Part shown: positions 45,841 to 55,421 of the stretch, piece by piece
How positions within the stretch are numbered: the stretch's first letter is position 1
How the letters are laid out: every line of letters begins with the position of its first letter
DNA from: Nitrososphaeraceae archaeon
GTDB taxonomy: Archaea; Thermoproteota; Nitrososphaeria; Nitrososphaerales; Nitrososphaeraceae
Assembly: GCA_031316115.1 (NCBI GenBank)
Contig: JALDRC010000002.1
Span: 186,001 to 250,000 of the forward strand
DNA: 64,000 nt
Reading direction: 5' to 3'
Program-made: the position numbers and the translations under genes
Notes under the pieces: model-generated
What the model saw: the letters and a program-made list of their open reading frames with translations, nothing else
What the model was told of the DNA's origin: nothing
Database searches by the model: none

Positions 45841-46720
45841 GAGCCTATCCCAAAAATAGATAGGAATATAGCTAGTTTGTTTCCTATCCTATCCAATAAT
45901 GCTAAAGCGGAAAAAGTTTGTCAGAACAATTACATAAATTCCAGATGATTTGTGGAGTGAAATTCAAAATATTTTACCAGATGAGAAACCAGAGAATACA
46001 ATTGGTCGCCCAATAGTTCCATACAGAAAAGTACTTGATGGTATAGTATTTGTCCTAAGGACTGGATGTCAATGGAAAATGTTACCTAAAGAATATGGTT
46101 CAGGTTCAACATGTCATAGAAGATTTCAAGAATGGATACAATTAGGTATATTTGATCTAATTTGGACCAGATTACTAAAATTATATGATAAAAAGATAGG
46201 AATCAAATGGAATTGGCAATCACTTGACAGTATATCAATAAAATCACCTTTAGGGGGGCGATGACAGGTCATAATCCTACAGATATAAGTAAATTAGGTA
46301 GCAAAAGACATATTTTAACAGATAAAGATGGTATTCCTCTATCTACTTTTATAACATCTGCCAATACTCATGATGTTACTGTTGCCATGAATACAATTGA
46401 TAATATTGTTATCAAAAGACCATCTAAATACAAACATAAACAAAATCTATGTCTTGATAAAACATATCATTCCAAAGAGGTAGAACAAGAAATCATCAAA
46501 AGAAGATACATTCCACATATACGTCATAGAAGAGAGGAGGAAAAATTATTTCCTAGAAAACATCCTACTAGAAGATGGGTAGTAGAGAGAACAAATTTAT
46601 GGCATAACAGATTCAGGAAATTGTTTACAAGATATGAAAAGAAAGATGAGAACTACTTTGGTCTTGTGGAATTGGCTAATAGTCTTATTATTTACAGGAA
46701 GTTAATTTTGGGATAGGCTC
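45841..46720 (+). mobile_element. IS5-family insertion sequence
   Basis: 880 nt with 15-bp inverted repeats GAGCCTATCCCAAAA (45841-45855) and TTTTGGGATAGGCTC (46706-46720), flanked by the 3-bp direct repeat TTA (45838-45840 and 46721-46723), the T-N-A target typical of IS427/IS1031-type IS5 elements. It carries two overlapping transposase frames. It appears complete. Confidence 0.93.
45950..46716 (+). CDS. IS5-type transposase in two frames, probable -1 frameshift
   Basis: Frame 1 (45950-46264) holds the DUF4096-like N-domain: GRPIVPYRKVLDGIVFVLRT, GCQWKMLPKEYG, the first catalytic Asp in SLDSISIKSPLGG. Frame 2 (46261-46716) holds the DDE core: GHNPTDISKLGSKRHILTD, the second Asp in NLCLDKTYHS, and RRWVVERTNLWHNRFRKLF with the catalytic Glu. 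The junction is a run of six G (A-GGG-GGG near 46252-46257), where a -1 slip reads PLGG-GAMTGHNP and continues in frame 2. Fused sequence is the normal ~255-residue enzyme, start TTG 45950 or slightly upstream. Likely active if frameshifting occurs. Confidence 0.85.
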
Positions 46721-49321: not shown

Positions 49322-49981
49322 ATGCGATTTATGAATTTAGGCTGTGTTTTACCTACAGTAGATGCCAGATTGATTATTTCGCTTGCTTTGGGGTTGATTT
49401 TTTTTAATTTTATTTCTGTCTCCGGATTAGTTTACGGTCAAGACTTCGAATCTGAGCTAACAGGTCCAATGATGAATAGCGAAGAAGATGACATCGAATT
49501 AACAGGTCCAATGATGAATAGCGAAGAAGATGACATCGAATTAACAGGTCCAATGATGAATAGCGAAGAAGATGACATCGAATTACAAACTCCCCCAGAA
49601 ACATCTTCAGAATTTCAAAGCACCAATCCATCCAAAATGTTTGTAAAAATAACTTCCCATGAAAGTGCTGAAAAGGTAGATTCAGGGACTCTGGAAATCC
49701 TTGGAATATCTAGTGATAACAATTCACGAGATTGTATAGTACAAATGGATTGGAATAATGAAAAACCTGCATGGATTGTTACTCCTACCGGTCCTGGTGG
49801 TGAAAGTGATTTTTCTACATGGAGTTTCACATACGATATTAATACTCATGAGATCGAACCTGGTAAGAATGAATTAACCTCAAAGTTAACTTGTATCAAT
49901 CCTGGACCATTAAATAAATGGTATAGTATTACATTGATAGGCAATCCAATTCCGTTGCCTCGTCCTCTTCCAGTACCTTGA
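49322..49981 (+). CDS. Exported repeat protein (219 aa)
   Basis: A signal or anchor helix (LIISLALGLIFFNFISVSGL, about residues 17-37) is followed by three identical 14-residue acidic repeats (ELTGPMMNSEEDDI) and an immunoglobulin-like C-terminal domain with two cysteines (DCIVQMDWNN; LTCINPG) ending in a Pro-rich tail. It is a probable surface or secreted protein. The repeats are identical in DNA. Start ATG 49322. Confidence 0.75.
   Translation: MRFMNLGCVLPTVDARLIISLALGLIFFNFISVSGLVYGQDFESELTGPMMNSEEDDIELTGPMMNSEEDDIELTGPMMNSEEDDIELQTPPETSSEFQSTNPSKMFVKITSHESAEKVDSGTLEILGISSDNNSRDCIVQMDWNNEKPAWIVTPTGPGGESDFSTWSFTYDINTHEIEPGKNELTSKLTCINPGPLNKWYSITLIGNPIPLPRPLPVP
49454..49579 (+). repeat. Three tandem 42-bp coding repeats
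   Basis: Three units of 42 nt encoding ELTGPMMNSEEDDI, differing only at one base in the first copy. Copy number is likely variable. Confidence 0.93.
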
Positions 49982-50091: not shown

Positions 50092-51015
50092 TTGAAAACG
50101 TTTTTTTTTAATTTGAAATTGAAATTATTATTTTTATTAACAATTATGACTCTTTTAGTTTCAAGCTCATTGAATAGTAGTTATGAACATACCTTTACTT
50201 CTGACGAAACTTCGTTTTATTTAACATTCGTGGACGAGATGAATGTTCAGAAAGACTTGGTTAAAAAGTATATAAACGAAGGAGATTATGATAATGCAAA
50301 AGATCATCTCACAAGAATGAATGAACTTTATATCGATGAAATCAAAAATGAATTAGCCGAAAAAAACCAGAGGATTTCCAAAGAGATCTCTTCTTACATC
50401 AGAGGTGTAGGTGATCAAATCAAACAAGGATTAGATGCAAAATCTATACTGAATTCCATAGATGTCTTGGATCCTGTTTTAGCAGAATCTTTAGATGTTA
50501 GATTAGATCCAGAGTCGCTTAATAATTCTACTATTCATGCTTTGCATTTTGCCTCATTACTTAATTCCATGGAGATAAATTACAGGACCTCTCTATTATC
50601 AAAGAATAGTCTAAATGATTCTGAAATAGGTGTATCAATAGTATCAAATAAAACAGAACAAATGAACCATGACCATATGGAAGGACAGACAACTAATATG
50701 GAAAAAATTGCAAGTAATATAACTGATTTTGTATCATATGACACTGCAAAAGGTTTATTGACTGTTATCAAGAATTTTTATAACAGTACTGTAAAACATG
50801 ATACTAATCAAACTCAATCTACAGATTTGGATAAAATCAACATCGCATTAGACCAGTCTGAAGACATAATAAATTCAGTGCGACCATATAAAGAGCTTGC
50901 AGTACAGATACACGGAATAATACATCCTACTATCATCGATATATACGGATTGGATCATTTAGATATCAATCAACCAACGACCTTAAACTTGCAACAACAA
51001 GATTCTCATTCTTAA
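50092..51015 (+). CDS. Exported helical protein (307 aa)
   Basis: An N-terminal signal helix (LLFLLTIMTLLVSSSLNSS) precedes a largely alpha-helical ectodomain with charged stretches (KNELAEKNQRISKEISSYIR) and several N-glycosylation sequons (NNST, NKTE, NITD, NSTV). No catalytic motif. Possible cell-surface or pseudoperiplasmic factor. TTG 50092 is the start that includes the signal helix. Co-oriented with the neighbouring glycosyltransferase. Confidence 0.7.
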   Translation: MKTFFFNLKLKLLFLLTIMTLLVSSSLNSSYEHTFTSDETSFYLTFVDEMNVQKDLVKKYINEGDYDNAKDHLTRMNELYIDEIKNELAEKNQRISKEISSYIRGVGDQIKQGLDAKSILNSIDVLDPVLAESLDVRLDPESLNNSTIHALHFASLLNSMEINYRTSLLSKNSLNDSEIGVSIVSNKTEQMNHDHMEGQTTNMEKIASNITDFVSYDTAKGLLTVIKNFYNSTVKHDTNQTQSTDLDKINIALDQSEDIINSVRPYKELAVQIHGIIHPTIIDIYGLDHLDINQPTTLNLQQQDSHS

Positions 51016-51080: not shown

Positions 51081-52613
51081 TTGATCCCGAAATACAAATT
51101 AAAAAGGCGTTTGGTTCCTGCTTTTTACAGAAATGAAATATTTATAGTAATAATGTTAGTTGTAGTTTCATTCGCTCTTAGATTATATGGAACAGATGAC
51201 TTGGGATTTAATAATGATGAATCTATATATGTAGCACAAGGGGCTTCCCTTGCAAATTTTGAAGAATTTCGTGAACACTTTTCAATTTTCAGGGCTCATC
51301 CTCTACTAATGCAATTTTTTGTTTCTTTATCATTATCATTATTAGGTTTAAGTGAAATTTCTGCAAGACTCGTACCTGTATTGATGGGAACTGGTATAGT
51401 TTTTCTTACATACTTTATAGCTAGAAATATATATTCCAAACCAGTTGCTATTATTTCTTCTACAATTCTAACCTTCTTACCATATCATATCATAATTTCC
51501 AGACAAGTAATAGTTGATGTCTCATTTTCATTTTTTCTATTACTTAATATATTATTACTTGTAATTTACATCAAAAGTAATAGCAATAAGAAATTATTAT
51601 TATTTTTAATAGGCTCATGTTCTGGATTGTCTTTTCTTTCTAAGGAAATTGGAATAGTAGTTTTGATTACTTCTCTTATCACAATTGCATTAACCAAAAA
51701 ACATTTAACAAAAAATATAACTTTAGTATTGACGACATTTTTGGCAGTTACTTCCCCATATTGGATTTCTTTCTTGTTTTTAGAAAATGCACAACAATCA
51801 ATTATTGAATATTTTAATTGGCAATCTTCAAGACCTGCAAATCATGAAAATTTGTATTATTTCGAGGTAATGTCAAAAGAAATTCTTGGCTATCCACTCT
51901 GTATATTGATTATTATATTCTACATTCAATTTATTTTACAGAGAAAACTGTGGAATTCCCTAACAACATTTATTCCTTTTATTTGGATTCCTGTATTCTT
52001 TATTTTTTACCAAGTTATACCTTTAAAGAATTTTACATTTCTATATTCAATAGTGCCTTTATTTGTGATAATCGGGATTTCTGCACTCTTCAGCTCGCCT
52101 ATGAATAAAATAAGATTTAATAGAATCCTTCTATTGATATTAATACCTGTAATTTTGATTTCTAATTCATTTTTTTTGAATAATTTTGTATTCTCAATTC
52201 CATACCATCCTACTCTTGGGTCTGAATCAGTTAATTATATGAAAGATGCGTCACTATGGATAGAAGAAAATACTCCAACAAATTCTACATCTTTAACATT
52301 GTATACACATATGTCCAACATAATAAAATTCTACTCACATAGAGATTCCATATCACTTCAGTCAAATAATAATCCATCTTATGACAAAATAGCTGATGCA
52401 GATTTTCTAATTGCATCAAAAAAAATAAATTATTTAGTATACGAAAAGGTTCAACTAGACAATGCAAATTTTTTAAAAAATGAAGCAACGAAAATGGAGG
52501 AGTATATACAAAAATTCGATGCAATCCCAATTCATACAACTTATTCAAATTACACTAATAGCGACGGTAAGAGTCTCGCAACAGCTGCTATAATAATTTA
52601 TAAAATTAATTAG
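51081..52613 (+). CDS. PMT/ArnT-type membrane glycosyltransferase
   Basis: A 510-residue GT-C-fold enzyme with about 11-12 membrane helices. The first external loop carries GFNNDESIYVAQGASL, with the Asp-Glu pair that serves as catalytic base in PMT, ArnT and dolichol-phosphate-sugar transferases. A Lys/Arg-rich loop and ESVNYMKDASLWIEENTP give the extracytoplasmic C-terminal domain seen in this family. It transfers sugar from a lipid carrier to a surface protein or lipid. TTG 51081 follows the exported protein by 65 nt, and it precedes the phosphoesterase homologue, so surface substrates are close at hand. Confidence 0.9.
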   Translation: MIPKYKLKRRLVPAFYRNEIFIVIMLVVVSFALRLYGTDDLGFNNDESIYVAQGASLANFEEFREHFSIFRAHPLLMQFFVSLSLSLLGLSEISARLVPVLMGTGIVFLTYFIARNIYSKPVAIISSTILTFLPYHIIISRQVIVDVSFSFFLLLNILLLVIYIKSNSNKKLLLFLIGSCSGLSFLSKEIGIVVLITSLITIALTKKHLTKNITLVLTTFLAVTSPYWISFLFLENAQQSIIEYFNWQSSRPANHENLYYFEVMSKEILGYPLCILIIIFYIQFILQRKLWNSLTTFIPFIWIPVFFIFYQVIPLKNFTFLYSIVPLFVIIGISALFSSPMNKIRFNRILLLILIPVILISNSFFLNNFVFSIPYHPTLGSESVNYMKDASLWIEENTPTNSTSLTLYTHMSNIIKFYSHRDSISLQSNNNPSYDKIADADFLIASKKINYLVYEKVQLDNANFLKNEATKMEEYIQKFDAIPIHTTYSNYTNSDGKSLATAAIIIYKIN

Positions 52614-52670: not shown

Positions 52671-54644
52671 ATGTTTGGATTTTTGAACAAAATATCTATT
52701 AAATTTTTGTTATTGTTACTAATTATACTAGTACCGGTTCTACTAGCTCAAAATCAAGCTCTATGCACAGAGTTTTCCAATACTGTTGAAGATAAAGTAA
52801 ATAATACCAGAACTCCGATAGAACATATAATAGTATTATCGCAAGGACGTCGTAGTTTTGATAATTATTTTGGAACATATCCAGGAGCCAATGGATTTCC
52901 TAATGACATTTCTATTCCGATCAATCCTTTAGCAAACATAATAAACTTTAAAAATTATACCATACACTTGGATTTCAAATTAAACCAATCTAAAACCAAA
53001 TCCGATCAATTCATTATTACAAAAGGCGGATTAGGAAAGGAAACTCCTGGAGATAATTTAAATTTTGGTGTATTAATAACACCTGATTATAGAATAAAAG
53101 CTGGATTTGAAGATAGGCAAGGTATAGACCATTTCGTTTATTCCAATAAAAGATATAATGATAATAAATGGCATAATCTGATAGTTTCGTATGATGGAAA
53201 TTACTTGAGTCTTTATCTGGATAAAATTTTAATTGAAAAAAAAAATACTCAAAAAGCTACTCCTGATGACAATAAATTGCCATTTATAAGGATTGGAGCA
53301 AATTTCTTGAAAGCTGAATTACCTTTCATTGGTGATTTAGATCATTTAAAAATCTGGAATAGAACATTAACAGCAGATGAACTTACTTTTCTTTTTAAAG
53401 GGTCAAAAAATTATTCTGATCCTCTAGTCGATCTTGATCGTAATCTAAATCACAGTTCTGGTTCCCTTAATTTCAACGGATCTAATTATTTTGATATTAA
53501 AGTTACTGCAAAGAATTACGAACTTAACCCTGTTAAACCATTCGACCTTCAGAATACAAAAACTCACCAGTTAAGTTTTGATAAGACAGTATTTGAAAAA
53601 TCTTATGACTACGGATTCATGGATGGTTTTATATTTGCCCAAAATAGCGAATCTAATAAAAATGGAACCATTGTTATGGGCTATTATGATAATAAAACTA
53701 TAGGATTATATTGGCTTCTTGCATCTGAATTTGTACTAACTGATAATTTTTTTGGTCCTTCGTCCAATGATCTTGCTAACAATCTCCGCTTGTATACATT
53801 AGGTGCCGATTCTTATAAAAAAAATATTCCTGAGGATGGATTGGTAGATATAAATATGACAATCTTTGACATTCTTGAAAAAAATAATATATCTTGGAAA
53901 ATTTATGTTGAAGATTATAATCCAGATCTAAATTATACACTTAATGATGTTAAATCTAAACGTCATCTTCCTATCAATCCTATTTTGGCTATACCGAGGT
54001 TTGTAGAAAATTCAACATTAAATTCCAAGATAGTTGATCTAGATCAGTATTTTGAAGATTTAAAAGAAGGACTCCCAAATATATCTTATATCATTTCTTC
54101 AAATAGTCACGAGAGTTCTCCAAAAGATCTTTTAAAAGGAGAAGAATTTGTTACCACTTTAATATCAGCATTGATGCAGAGCAAATATTGGAAAACTAGT
54201 GTATTTATATTAACATATAGTAGTTCTGGTGGATGGTACGATCATGTAATACCTCCACAATTAGAAGGTAATCCATTGGGATTTCGAGTCCCAACCTTAA
54301 TAATTTCTCCTTATGCCAAACGGGGATTCGTAGATAGTACATTATATGATCATACCTCTATCCTAAGATTCATTGCTTATAATAATAATCTTGACTTGTT
54401 TAATTCCAGTGAATTAAAATCCAATAATATTCTAAATTCTTTTGATTTTGACACTATTCCACCAGCTTCAAGGAACATTGTAGATGACTTAGTGTATACA
54501 TATGAATCAGGCAAGTTTACAAAAAACAGGAATGATGAAGTTTCAGATATTTCAATTATTTTCTTATTATATGTTTTAACGATGACTTCTATTCTAATCA
54601 TTTATTTTTCTGTAACCTTTCTTAGGTTTAAAAATAGAAAATAA
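52671..54644 (+). CDS. Membrane-anchored phosphoesterase homologue with LamG insert, probably inactive
   Basis: A 657-residue protein of the phosphoesterase/phospholipase C/AcpA family (PF04185 type). Signal peptide residues 9-30; N-motif VLSQGRRSFDNYFGTYPGAN at 55-74; a LamG/concanavalin-like insert (about 90-245); the catalytic-region remainder to 570; and a C-terminal membrane helix (about 627-650). The family's metal ligands are changed: Q-E-N-R-S-F is Q-G-R-R-S-F (Gly59, Arg60), and T-Y-D-D-S-G-G is T-Y-S-S-S-G-G (Ser517, Ser518). The GPSSNDLANN stretch (362-371) holds a possible nucleophile serine. It is likely a non-catalytic surface binding protein. It follows the PMT gene by 57 nt. 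Confidence 0.88.
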   Translation: MFGFLNKISIKFLLLLLIILVPVLLAQNQALCTEFSNTVEDKVNNTRTPIEHIIVLSQGRRSFDNYFGTYPGANGFPNDISIPINPLANIINFKNYTIHLDFKLNQSKTKSDQFIITKGGLGKETPGDNLNFGVLITPDYRIKAGFEDRQGIDHFVYSNKRYNDNKWHNLIVSYDGNYLSLYLDKILIEKKNTQKATPDDNKLPFIRIGANFLKAELPFIGDLDHLKIWNRTLTADELTFLFKGSKNYSDPLVDLDRNLNHSSGSLNFNGSNYFDIKVTAKNYELNPVKPFDLQNTKTHQLSFDKTVFEKSYDYGFMDGFIFAQNSESNKNGTIVMGYYDNKTIGLYWLLASEFVLTDNFFGPSSNDLANNLRLYTLGADSYKKNIPEDGLVDINMTIFDILEKNNISWKIYVEDYNPDLNYTLNDVKSKRHLPINPILAIPRFVENSTLNSKIVDLDQYFEDLKEGLPNISYIISSNSHESSPKDLLKGEEFVTTLISALMQSKYWKTSVFILTYSSSGGWYDHVIPPQLEGNPLGFRVPTLIISPYAKRGFVDSTLYDHTSILRFIAYNNNLDLFNSSELKSNNILNSFDFDTIPPASRNIVDDLVYTYESGKFTKNRNDEVSDISIIFLLYVLTMTSILIIYFSVTFLRFKNRK

Positions 54645-54701: not shown

Positions 54702-55421
54702 GGCTCTGTTAATTTAATCAGAAACAGCTATAGCTAAGAACATTCTATCTATCATATGAATCAAATCAAATTTGAAAGAAACAGAACATCCACATGTATA
54801 GTGATGTATTCTCTTTATCTTGATTTTCTTGGTTTGAGTTTAAGTAATACATCTAAAGCATTAGTAATATTTAGAGATGAAAAGCAAAGTCATGTTTCTG
54901 TTTGGAATTTGATACAAAGATTTGGTTCTTGTCAGATTCACAAAAGAAAAAGAGTAACTGCTTTTATTATAGATGAAACCATTGTTCAGATTGGTAACCA
55001 GAATTTTTGGTTATGGATATGTATTGAACCAGTCCAGAGATCTGTGCTTGGAATCTATATATCATAAGATAGAAACATGTTTGTAGCAGAGAATTTTATC
55101 AGTTCTCTTGTATCAAAATATGGAAAACATACCATCTATACAGATGGTGGTACATGGTATAAGGAAGCCTGTGACGTAATTGGATTAAAACACTATTTGC
55201 ATTCTTCAATAGAGAAAAGTTTGATGGAAAGAGTAAACCAGTTTTTGAAAGACAGAATAGAAAGTTTTGATGATTACTATCCATGTAGACAAGAGGAATG
55301 TAATTTATTTCATGTTAATAACTAGATACAATTCTTTATTTCTATATACAATGATACTATAGCAAACAATAATCATTTTGAGTTAGAAAAAGAGGTGAGT
55401 ATTATCTTAAATTAACAGAGC
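54702..55421 (+). mobile_element. IS6-like insertion sequence, copy 3
   Basis: 720 nt with terminal repeats GGCTCTGTTAATTTAA and TTAAATTAACAGAGC. The final base beyond the right repeat differs from copy 2 (A in place of C). No clean 8-bp target duplication. It differs from copy 2 by a handful of bases (for example Tyr/Phe codons near 54821 and Tyr/His near 54938). Confidence 0.9.
54756..55415 (+). pseudogene. IS6-like transposase with two in-frame stops (copy 3)
   Basis: Same structure as copy 2. The full 219-codon frame is cut by TAA at 55065-55067 and TAG at 55323-55325, both identical in position to copy 2. The DDE residues are present in the remaining sequence. This copy must have moved, or been copied, after both stops arose. 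Confidence 0.9.

Follow-up and report, generated by a model that had tools for sequence, protein, structure and literature searches.

Genes and features of the locus

The window, i.e., the whole stretch of 64,000 nucleotides that was analyzed, carries a gene pair in which a membrane glycosyltransferase (GT) gene is followed on the same strand by the gene of a PF04185 protein (P0001, the pseudoenzyme below). The features of the pair and of one upstream gene are the following:

49322..49981, + strand: small secreted protein upstream of the pair, genus-conserved, possibly accessory (locus comparison)
51081..52613, + strand: partner PMT_2 (PF13231) GT-C membrane glycosyltransferase, 510 aa, with NNDE at 44-47 (Pfam, locus comparison)
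52671..54644, + strand: PF04185 pseudo-phosphoesterase with LamG insert, 657 aa (Pfam, AcpA alignment, family alignment)
52671..52775, + strand: N-terminal hydrophobic segment, putative signal peptide or anchor (residues 1-35; Kyte-Doolittle (KD) hydropathy 2.90 at residue 8; model helix 10-35)
52842..52862, + strand: degenerate motif 1, QGRRSFD (residues 58-64; canonical QENRSFD), with G59/R60 in place of the metal ligands Glu/Asn (alignments)
52941..53384, + strand: inserted LamG domain (Laminin_G_3, residues 91-238; Pfam and fold match to pentraxin, LNS and perlecan LG3)
53535..54470, + strand: PF04185 body (residues 289-600; Pfam; dN/dS 0.08-0.13 within the genus)
53769..53771, + strand: nucleophile position, Asp367 where Ser/Thr is canonical (family alignment)
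54216..54245, + strand: degenerate motif YSSSGGWYDH (residues 516-525), with S517-S518 in place of Asp-Asp (alignments)
54549..54620, + strand: predicted C-terminal transmembrane (TM) helix (residues ~627-650) with basic tail (KD 2.39; model helix 624-656)

Domain make-up, topology and fold of the pseudoenzyme

The start, stop and 657-aa length of the open reading frame at 52671-54644 were checked in the sequence and match the first-pass annotation, which had been made from the letters alone. The protein is a PF04185 homologue according to Pfam (185 bits, gathering cut-off 23), and the match falls into two stretches, with the main one at residues 306-574 and the first motif set apart from it. 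Between them lies Laminin_G_3 (61 bits, cut-off 27.6), a profile of the LamG/ConA-like lectin superfamily, which confirms the earlier proposal that a LamG domain sits as an insert behind the first motif. The scores against TIGR03396 (PC_PLC; 139, curated cut-off 580 bits) and TIGR03397 (acid phosphatase; 128, curated cut-off 363 bits) are below the thresholds, as they likewise are for the canonical paralogues.

Hydropathy and model helices agree with the signal peptide and C-terminal helix that had been taken to place the protein on the cell surface. The N-terminal hydrophobic segment is present in all complete clade members, which also end in a TM helix followed by a basic tail (RFKNRK in the window protein). 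The C-terminal TM helix is absent from the same-family canonical PF04185 relatives checked, but L032, a canonical relative from another family of the order, does have one. These predictions support a secreted or surface-located protein that is C-terminally anchored in the membrane. Of the N-glycosylation sequons, seven are shared by all clade members that cover them, although sequons are frequent in canonical PF04185 relatives too.

An initial AF2 model was weak (pLDDT 69) and was replaced by one from a deeper, 39-row alignment (pLDDT 78.7, pTM 0.66), with a confident prediction of motif 1 and of the strand at 510-520. Foldseek matched the body to AcpA (E 4.7e-19) and non-specific PLCs, and the insert to pentraxin, LNS, sialic-acid-binding CBM40 and perlecan LG3 folds, so that the retention of the PF04185 landmarks, as first described, holds in both profile and model. 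The TM-scores, 0.42 when normalized by query length and at most 0.64 by target length, are moderate, which is probably an effect of the LamG insert together with the loop at 314-332, where the model is poor.

Loss of the active site

G59-R60 align with E43-N44 of Francisella AcpA (2d1g) and S517-S518 with its Asp pair, and the family alignment agrees, so the replacements of Glu-Asn and of the Asp pair had been read correctly. That these are metal-binding positions is borne out by plant NPC4, whose metal contacts are E23, N24, T158, D299 and E300 at the equivalent positions, and in which Ala mutants of the metal-contact residues, H79 or H264 have dramatically reduced or abolished activity (PMC9837106). 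The damage is larger than first described: the four metal positions were recognized, while the loss of the nucleophile and of one catalytic His had been overlooked.

All 30 canonical rows of the family alignment (A4, several families) keep E-N, S/T at the nucleophile and D-[DE]. In the pseudoenzyme clade, the first pair reads G-[RK] in 9/9 members, with residue 60 always basic, the nucleophile column holds Asp (within the genus) or Gly (in two other genera), and the Asp pair has become SS, SG or RE (8/9 genomes where the region is present, the G004 fragment included). The first catalytic His column, which is His in most canonical rows and Asn or Glu in a few lineages, is Phe303 in the window protein. 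Metal-ligand, nucleophile and His columns are thus altered in every clade member that covers them, and none of the three hallmarks of an active enzyme (Glu-Asn, Ser/Thr nucleophile, Asp-Asp/Glu pair) is present. Most members have Ser in place of a later His, which the closest canonical relatives carry within SEHPP, but the alignment is gapped at this place and the assignment less certain. The SGGWYDH frame and R539 are retained, and within the clade the His and acidic positions are variable.

The first-pass annotation would have been undermined by intact ligands elsewhere in the protein, and none were found in the family alignment, whose columns are unambiguous and in which the clade has no new shared acidic pair. 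Ser364 was considered as a retained nucleophile and rejected, as it came from a shifted phmmer alignment and the family alignment gives the Asp/Gly column instead. A sequencing error or one-off mutation was likewise dismissed as the source of the motif changes, since nine genomes agree. With metal site, nucleophile and catalytic His replaced, we infer that the protein is catalytically inactive. The exchange of E, N, D, D for G, R/K and SS/SG/RE shifts the summed charge over the four ligand positions and the nucleophile from -3 to 0 or +1, which would mean that the metal is lost while a phosphate or anion site could remain; the former metal pocket with its Arg/Lys, as read from the alignment columns, may bind an anion.

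Distribution, phylogeny and selection

Orthologues were searched in 121 relatives and all 70 genomes of the family. Eight further ones were recovered: the remaining five genomes of the genus each have one, and three come from genomes of two further genera. All nine share the LamG insert and QG[RK]RSFD. When 400 genomes of the order were searched for the pattern QG[RK]RSFDN, the matches came from these nine genomes and no others, and a class-wide PF04185 search (300 genomes) had no other insert-split locus among the matches listed. Scanning genome contigs for similar proteins gave LamG matches only, from Bacteroidota. The carrier genomes are ammonia oxidisers: archaeal AmoA was found in 8/9, the ninth being an 87% complete assembly.

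In a maximum-likelihood tree computed with LamG removed, the seven near-full-length pseudoenzymes form one clade (support 100/100), and the sister group is not resolved (83/65). A shared Gly-Arg/Ser-Ser signature had been suggested as a check, and the clade carries Gly-Arg or Gly-Lys at the first pair, with SG and RE occurring beside SS at the second. For the closer members of the genus, pairwise dN/dS was 0.16-0.22 for the whole gene; by part, it was 0.08-0.13 for the PF04185 body and 0.16-0.35 for LamG, with the highest values in the signal region, so constraint is strongest on the dead enzyme domain and not on the lectin-like insert. Several clade-invariant residues are absent or rare in canonical relatives (e.g., S57, G59, R431, P442, R443). 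Seven orthologues are near-full-length and uninterrupted, six of them complete, and their location is conserved.

Because of the strong purifying selection on the PF04185 body, we regard the protein as a maintained pseudoenzyme subfamily of PF04185, in which, as alignments and model indicate, the enzyme fold persists, the catalytic residues are lost and the gene is under selection. The earlier view that selection has kept a non-catalytic form is therefore upheld by the clade-wide signature, monophyly and low dN/dS, and its possible weakness, a change unique to one sequence under relaxed selection, does not apply, as nine genomes share the change. Low dN/dS and the clade-specific invariant residues exclude simple decay.

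The partner glycosyltransferase

The upstream gene belongs to the PMT/PMT_2 group by Pfam (PMT_2, 64 bits, cut-off 26.1) and has weak similarity to Agl23 and archaeal STT3. PMT-type transferases use polyprenyl-phosphate sugars at the membrane's outer face, and the substrate specificity of PMT_2 members is unreadable from sequence. Since [FL]NNDE[AS]IY is kept at the N-terminus of the GT in 8/8 sequences reaching it, the pair is probably an active transferase with a dead hydrolase.

In 9/9 loci, the GT orthologue lies directly upstream of the pseudoenzyme and is read in the same direction, with gaps of 57 (the window), 65, 66, 59, 63, 45, 4, 4 and -11 nt, a spacing that points to an operon. Close GT homologues (E < 1e-70) occur in exactly the nine pseudoenzyme-bearing genomes among the 70 of the family; the next match, with 23% identity, is in G049, where no adjoining PF04185 gene was seen within the short stretch examined. 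The co-occurrence (Fisher 1.5e-11) is computed as if related genomes were independent, and as nine genomes in three genera are not, the p value overstates the significance and its true weight is that of three genera.

Comparison with known systems

Fold and motif order are those of Francisella AcpA and PF04185 (phmmer E 2.9e-28), but AcpA retains its metal ligands, Ser nucleophile and His and has no LamG insert, and the pseudoenzyme differs in all of these. The fold and landmarks are likewise shared with plant NPC4 and the bacterial PC-PLCs PlcH and PlcN, from which the pseudoenzyme is distinguished by its replaced metal ligands, nucleophile and first His, the lack of a plant-type CTD, its predicted membrane anchor and the LamG insert. 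The one canonical paralogue in the same genome (L001, G000:C12:442216-443502) is also a secreted PF04185 protein; unlike the pseudoenzyme, it has intact QENISFD and YDDTGGWYDH, a full-length Pfam match, neither LamG nor C-terminal TM helix, and is not beside the GT. For the partner, an archaeal PMT-type example is Haloferax AglS, a Dol-P-Man mannosyltransferase (PMC3871713) that is likewise polytopic and expected to act at the outer face, a likeness by family. No pseudoenzyme partner of an archaeal GT-C such as AglS was found in the literature searched, nor did literature searches return a description of the pseudoenzyme proteins themselves.

Proposed role and alternative explanations

For an anchored dead ectodomain encoded with a PMT-type GT, the simplest roles are those of an accessory or acceptor-presenting subunit or of a dedicated substrate. 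We thus propose a two-gene surface-glycosylation module, a reading to which we give about an even chance. In it, the polytopic GT-C of PMT_2 type (gene 1) would take sugar from a polyprenyl-phosphate carrier and attach it to an acceptor at the membrane's outer face, and the secreted, C-terminally anchored pseudoenzyme (gene 2) would keep the fold of its PF04185 body as a platform for binding. With its invariant Arg/Lys and ligand positions that are no longer net acidic, the old metal site could hold a phosphate or anion without hydrolysis, and the inserted LamG would offer a second surface for glycan or protein binding. The pseudoenzyme would most likely be a GT subunit outside the cytoplasm that assists the enzyme or presents acceptors to it; a close second, still within this module, is the role of dedicated glycoprotein substrate of the GT. 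A physical partnership of the two proteins and the binding of anions or glycans are what we infer from this arrangement. A more specific version, in which the dead PLC-type domain is an obligate extracytoplasmic GT-C subunit whose Arg/Lys pocket holds the polyprenyl-phosphate sugar donor or an anionic acceptor glycan, is unlikely as it stands and is put forward tentatively.

The obligate GT linkage, the seven conserved sequons and the membrane anchoring would also fit a protein that is solely a substrate, i.e., a major glycoprotein of the surface or a part of a sheath to which the cognate GT adds sugars, LamG and the dead PLC domain being structural or adhesive. We consider this possible but doubtful, as the dead body need not then be the most conserved part of the protein, and a mere substrate does not need the clade-specific invariant R431, P442 and R443. 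The first-pass annotation had favoured a lectin-like receptor or adhesin, which in its present form would bind outside cells or particles, the GT linkage being incidental or the GT only modifying the adhesin. Surface anchoring and the LamG matches to sialic-acid-binding CBM40 and pentraxins speak for it; yet the proposal was built on LamG, a domain with diverse ligands that is numerous in these genomes and does not specify adhesion, the insert evolves faster than the PF04185 body, and the pairing with one GT is left unexplained. The strict GT linkage is the reason why we replace this now quite improbable role by the surface-glycosylation module.

The chances are slimmer still that the protein is an enzyme with a rebuilt active site, e.g., a phosphotransferase or hydrolase that works through Asp367/Arg60 and needs no metal. 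Compatible with this are the Asp that the genus has at the nucleophile position, the Arg/Lys of the pocket, the preserved SGGWYDH frame and R539, and an NPC4 activity that EDTA left unreduced in one study (PMC9837106), but the Asp is Gly in the two other genera, the His and acidic positions vary inside the clade, and NPC4 loses activity in T158D/E and in mutants of E23, N24, D299 and E300 (PMC9837106). A decaying gene under relaxed selection would account for the lost active site, but with seven near-full-length uninterrupted orthologues at a conserved location, low dN/dS in the whole gene and lower in the body, and clade-wide conservation, it is already refuted for practical purposes.

Returning to the surface-glycosylation module, what is new is the invariable pairing with one GT, and the whole is a new combination of known parts, not a categorically new system. 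Pseudoenzymes are well known from eukaryotic signalling, while few studies deal with those of archaeal cell envelopes, and the present group is a clean example within the PLC/AcpA superfamily that spans a whole clade and combines active-site loss, domain insertion, a membrane anchor and strict linkage to one GT. It offers a concrete candidate for how certain soil-type ammonia-oxidising archaea modify their surface. An annotation of these genes as 'phosphoesterase/phospholipase C' would mislead in studies of archaeal phosphorus use.

Other features of the neighbourhood

The small secreted protein at 49322-49981 is absent from the loci of the other two genera; its gene contains three exact 42-bp repeats (ELTGPMMNSEEDDI-type), seemingly missing from the 183-184-aa versions of relatives. 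Between this repeat protein and the GT, 50092-51015 encodes a 307-aa secreted protein of no clear family, present only in the window genome among the loci compared. In two g6 genomes, multi-LamG surface proteins lie directly upstream of the pair (L050 1-1986 and L053 2931-5036), one of which also carries Big_9/cadherin-like domains. Directly 3' of the pseudoenzyme, L050 (5741-8062, G044) has a fusion of a calcineurin-like phosphoesterase and a glucose/sorbosone dehydrogenase. A D12-class N6-adenine methyltransferase (L046 13042-13944) is genus-conserved downstream of the pair and missing there in the window, where the pseudoenzyme is directly followed by a two-frame transposase-like remnant without Pfam match (54756-55325); in G004, a related element is located just past the orthologue's 3' end (L052 2585-3241). 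Further upstream, an IS4/5-family transposase spans two overlapping frames (45950-46716; PF13340, then DDE_Tnp_1) that meet at a G6 run, a split due either to a programmed frameshift or to a mutation, and the ends of this element match (AGAGCCTATCCCAAAA-type).
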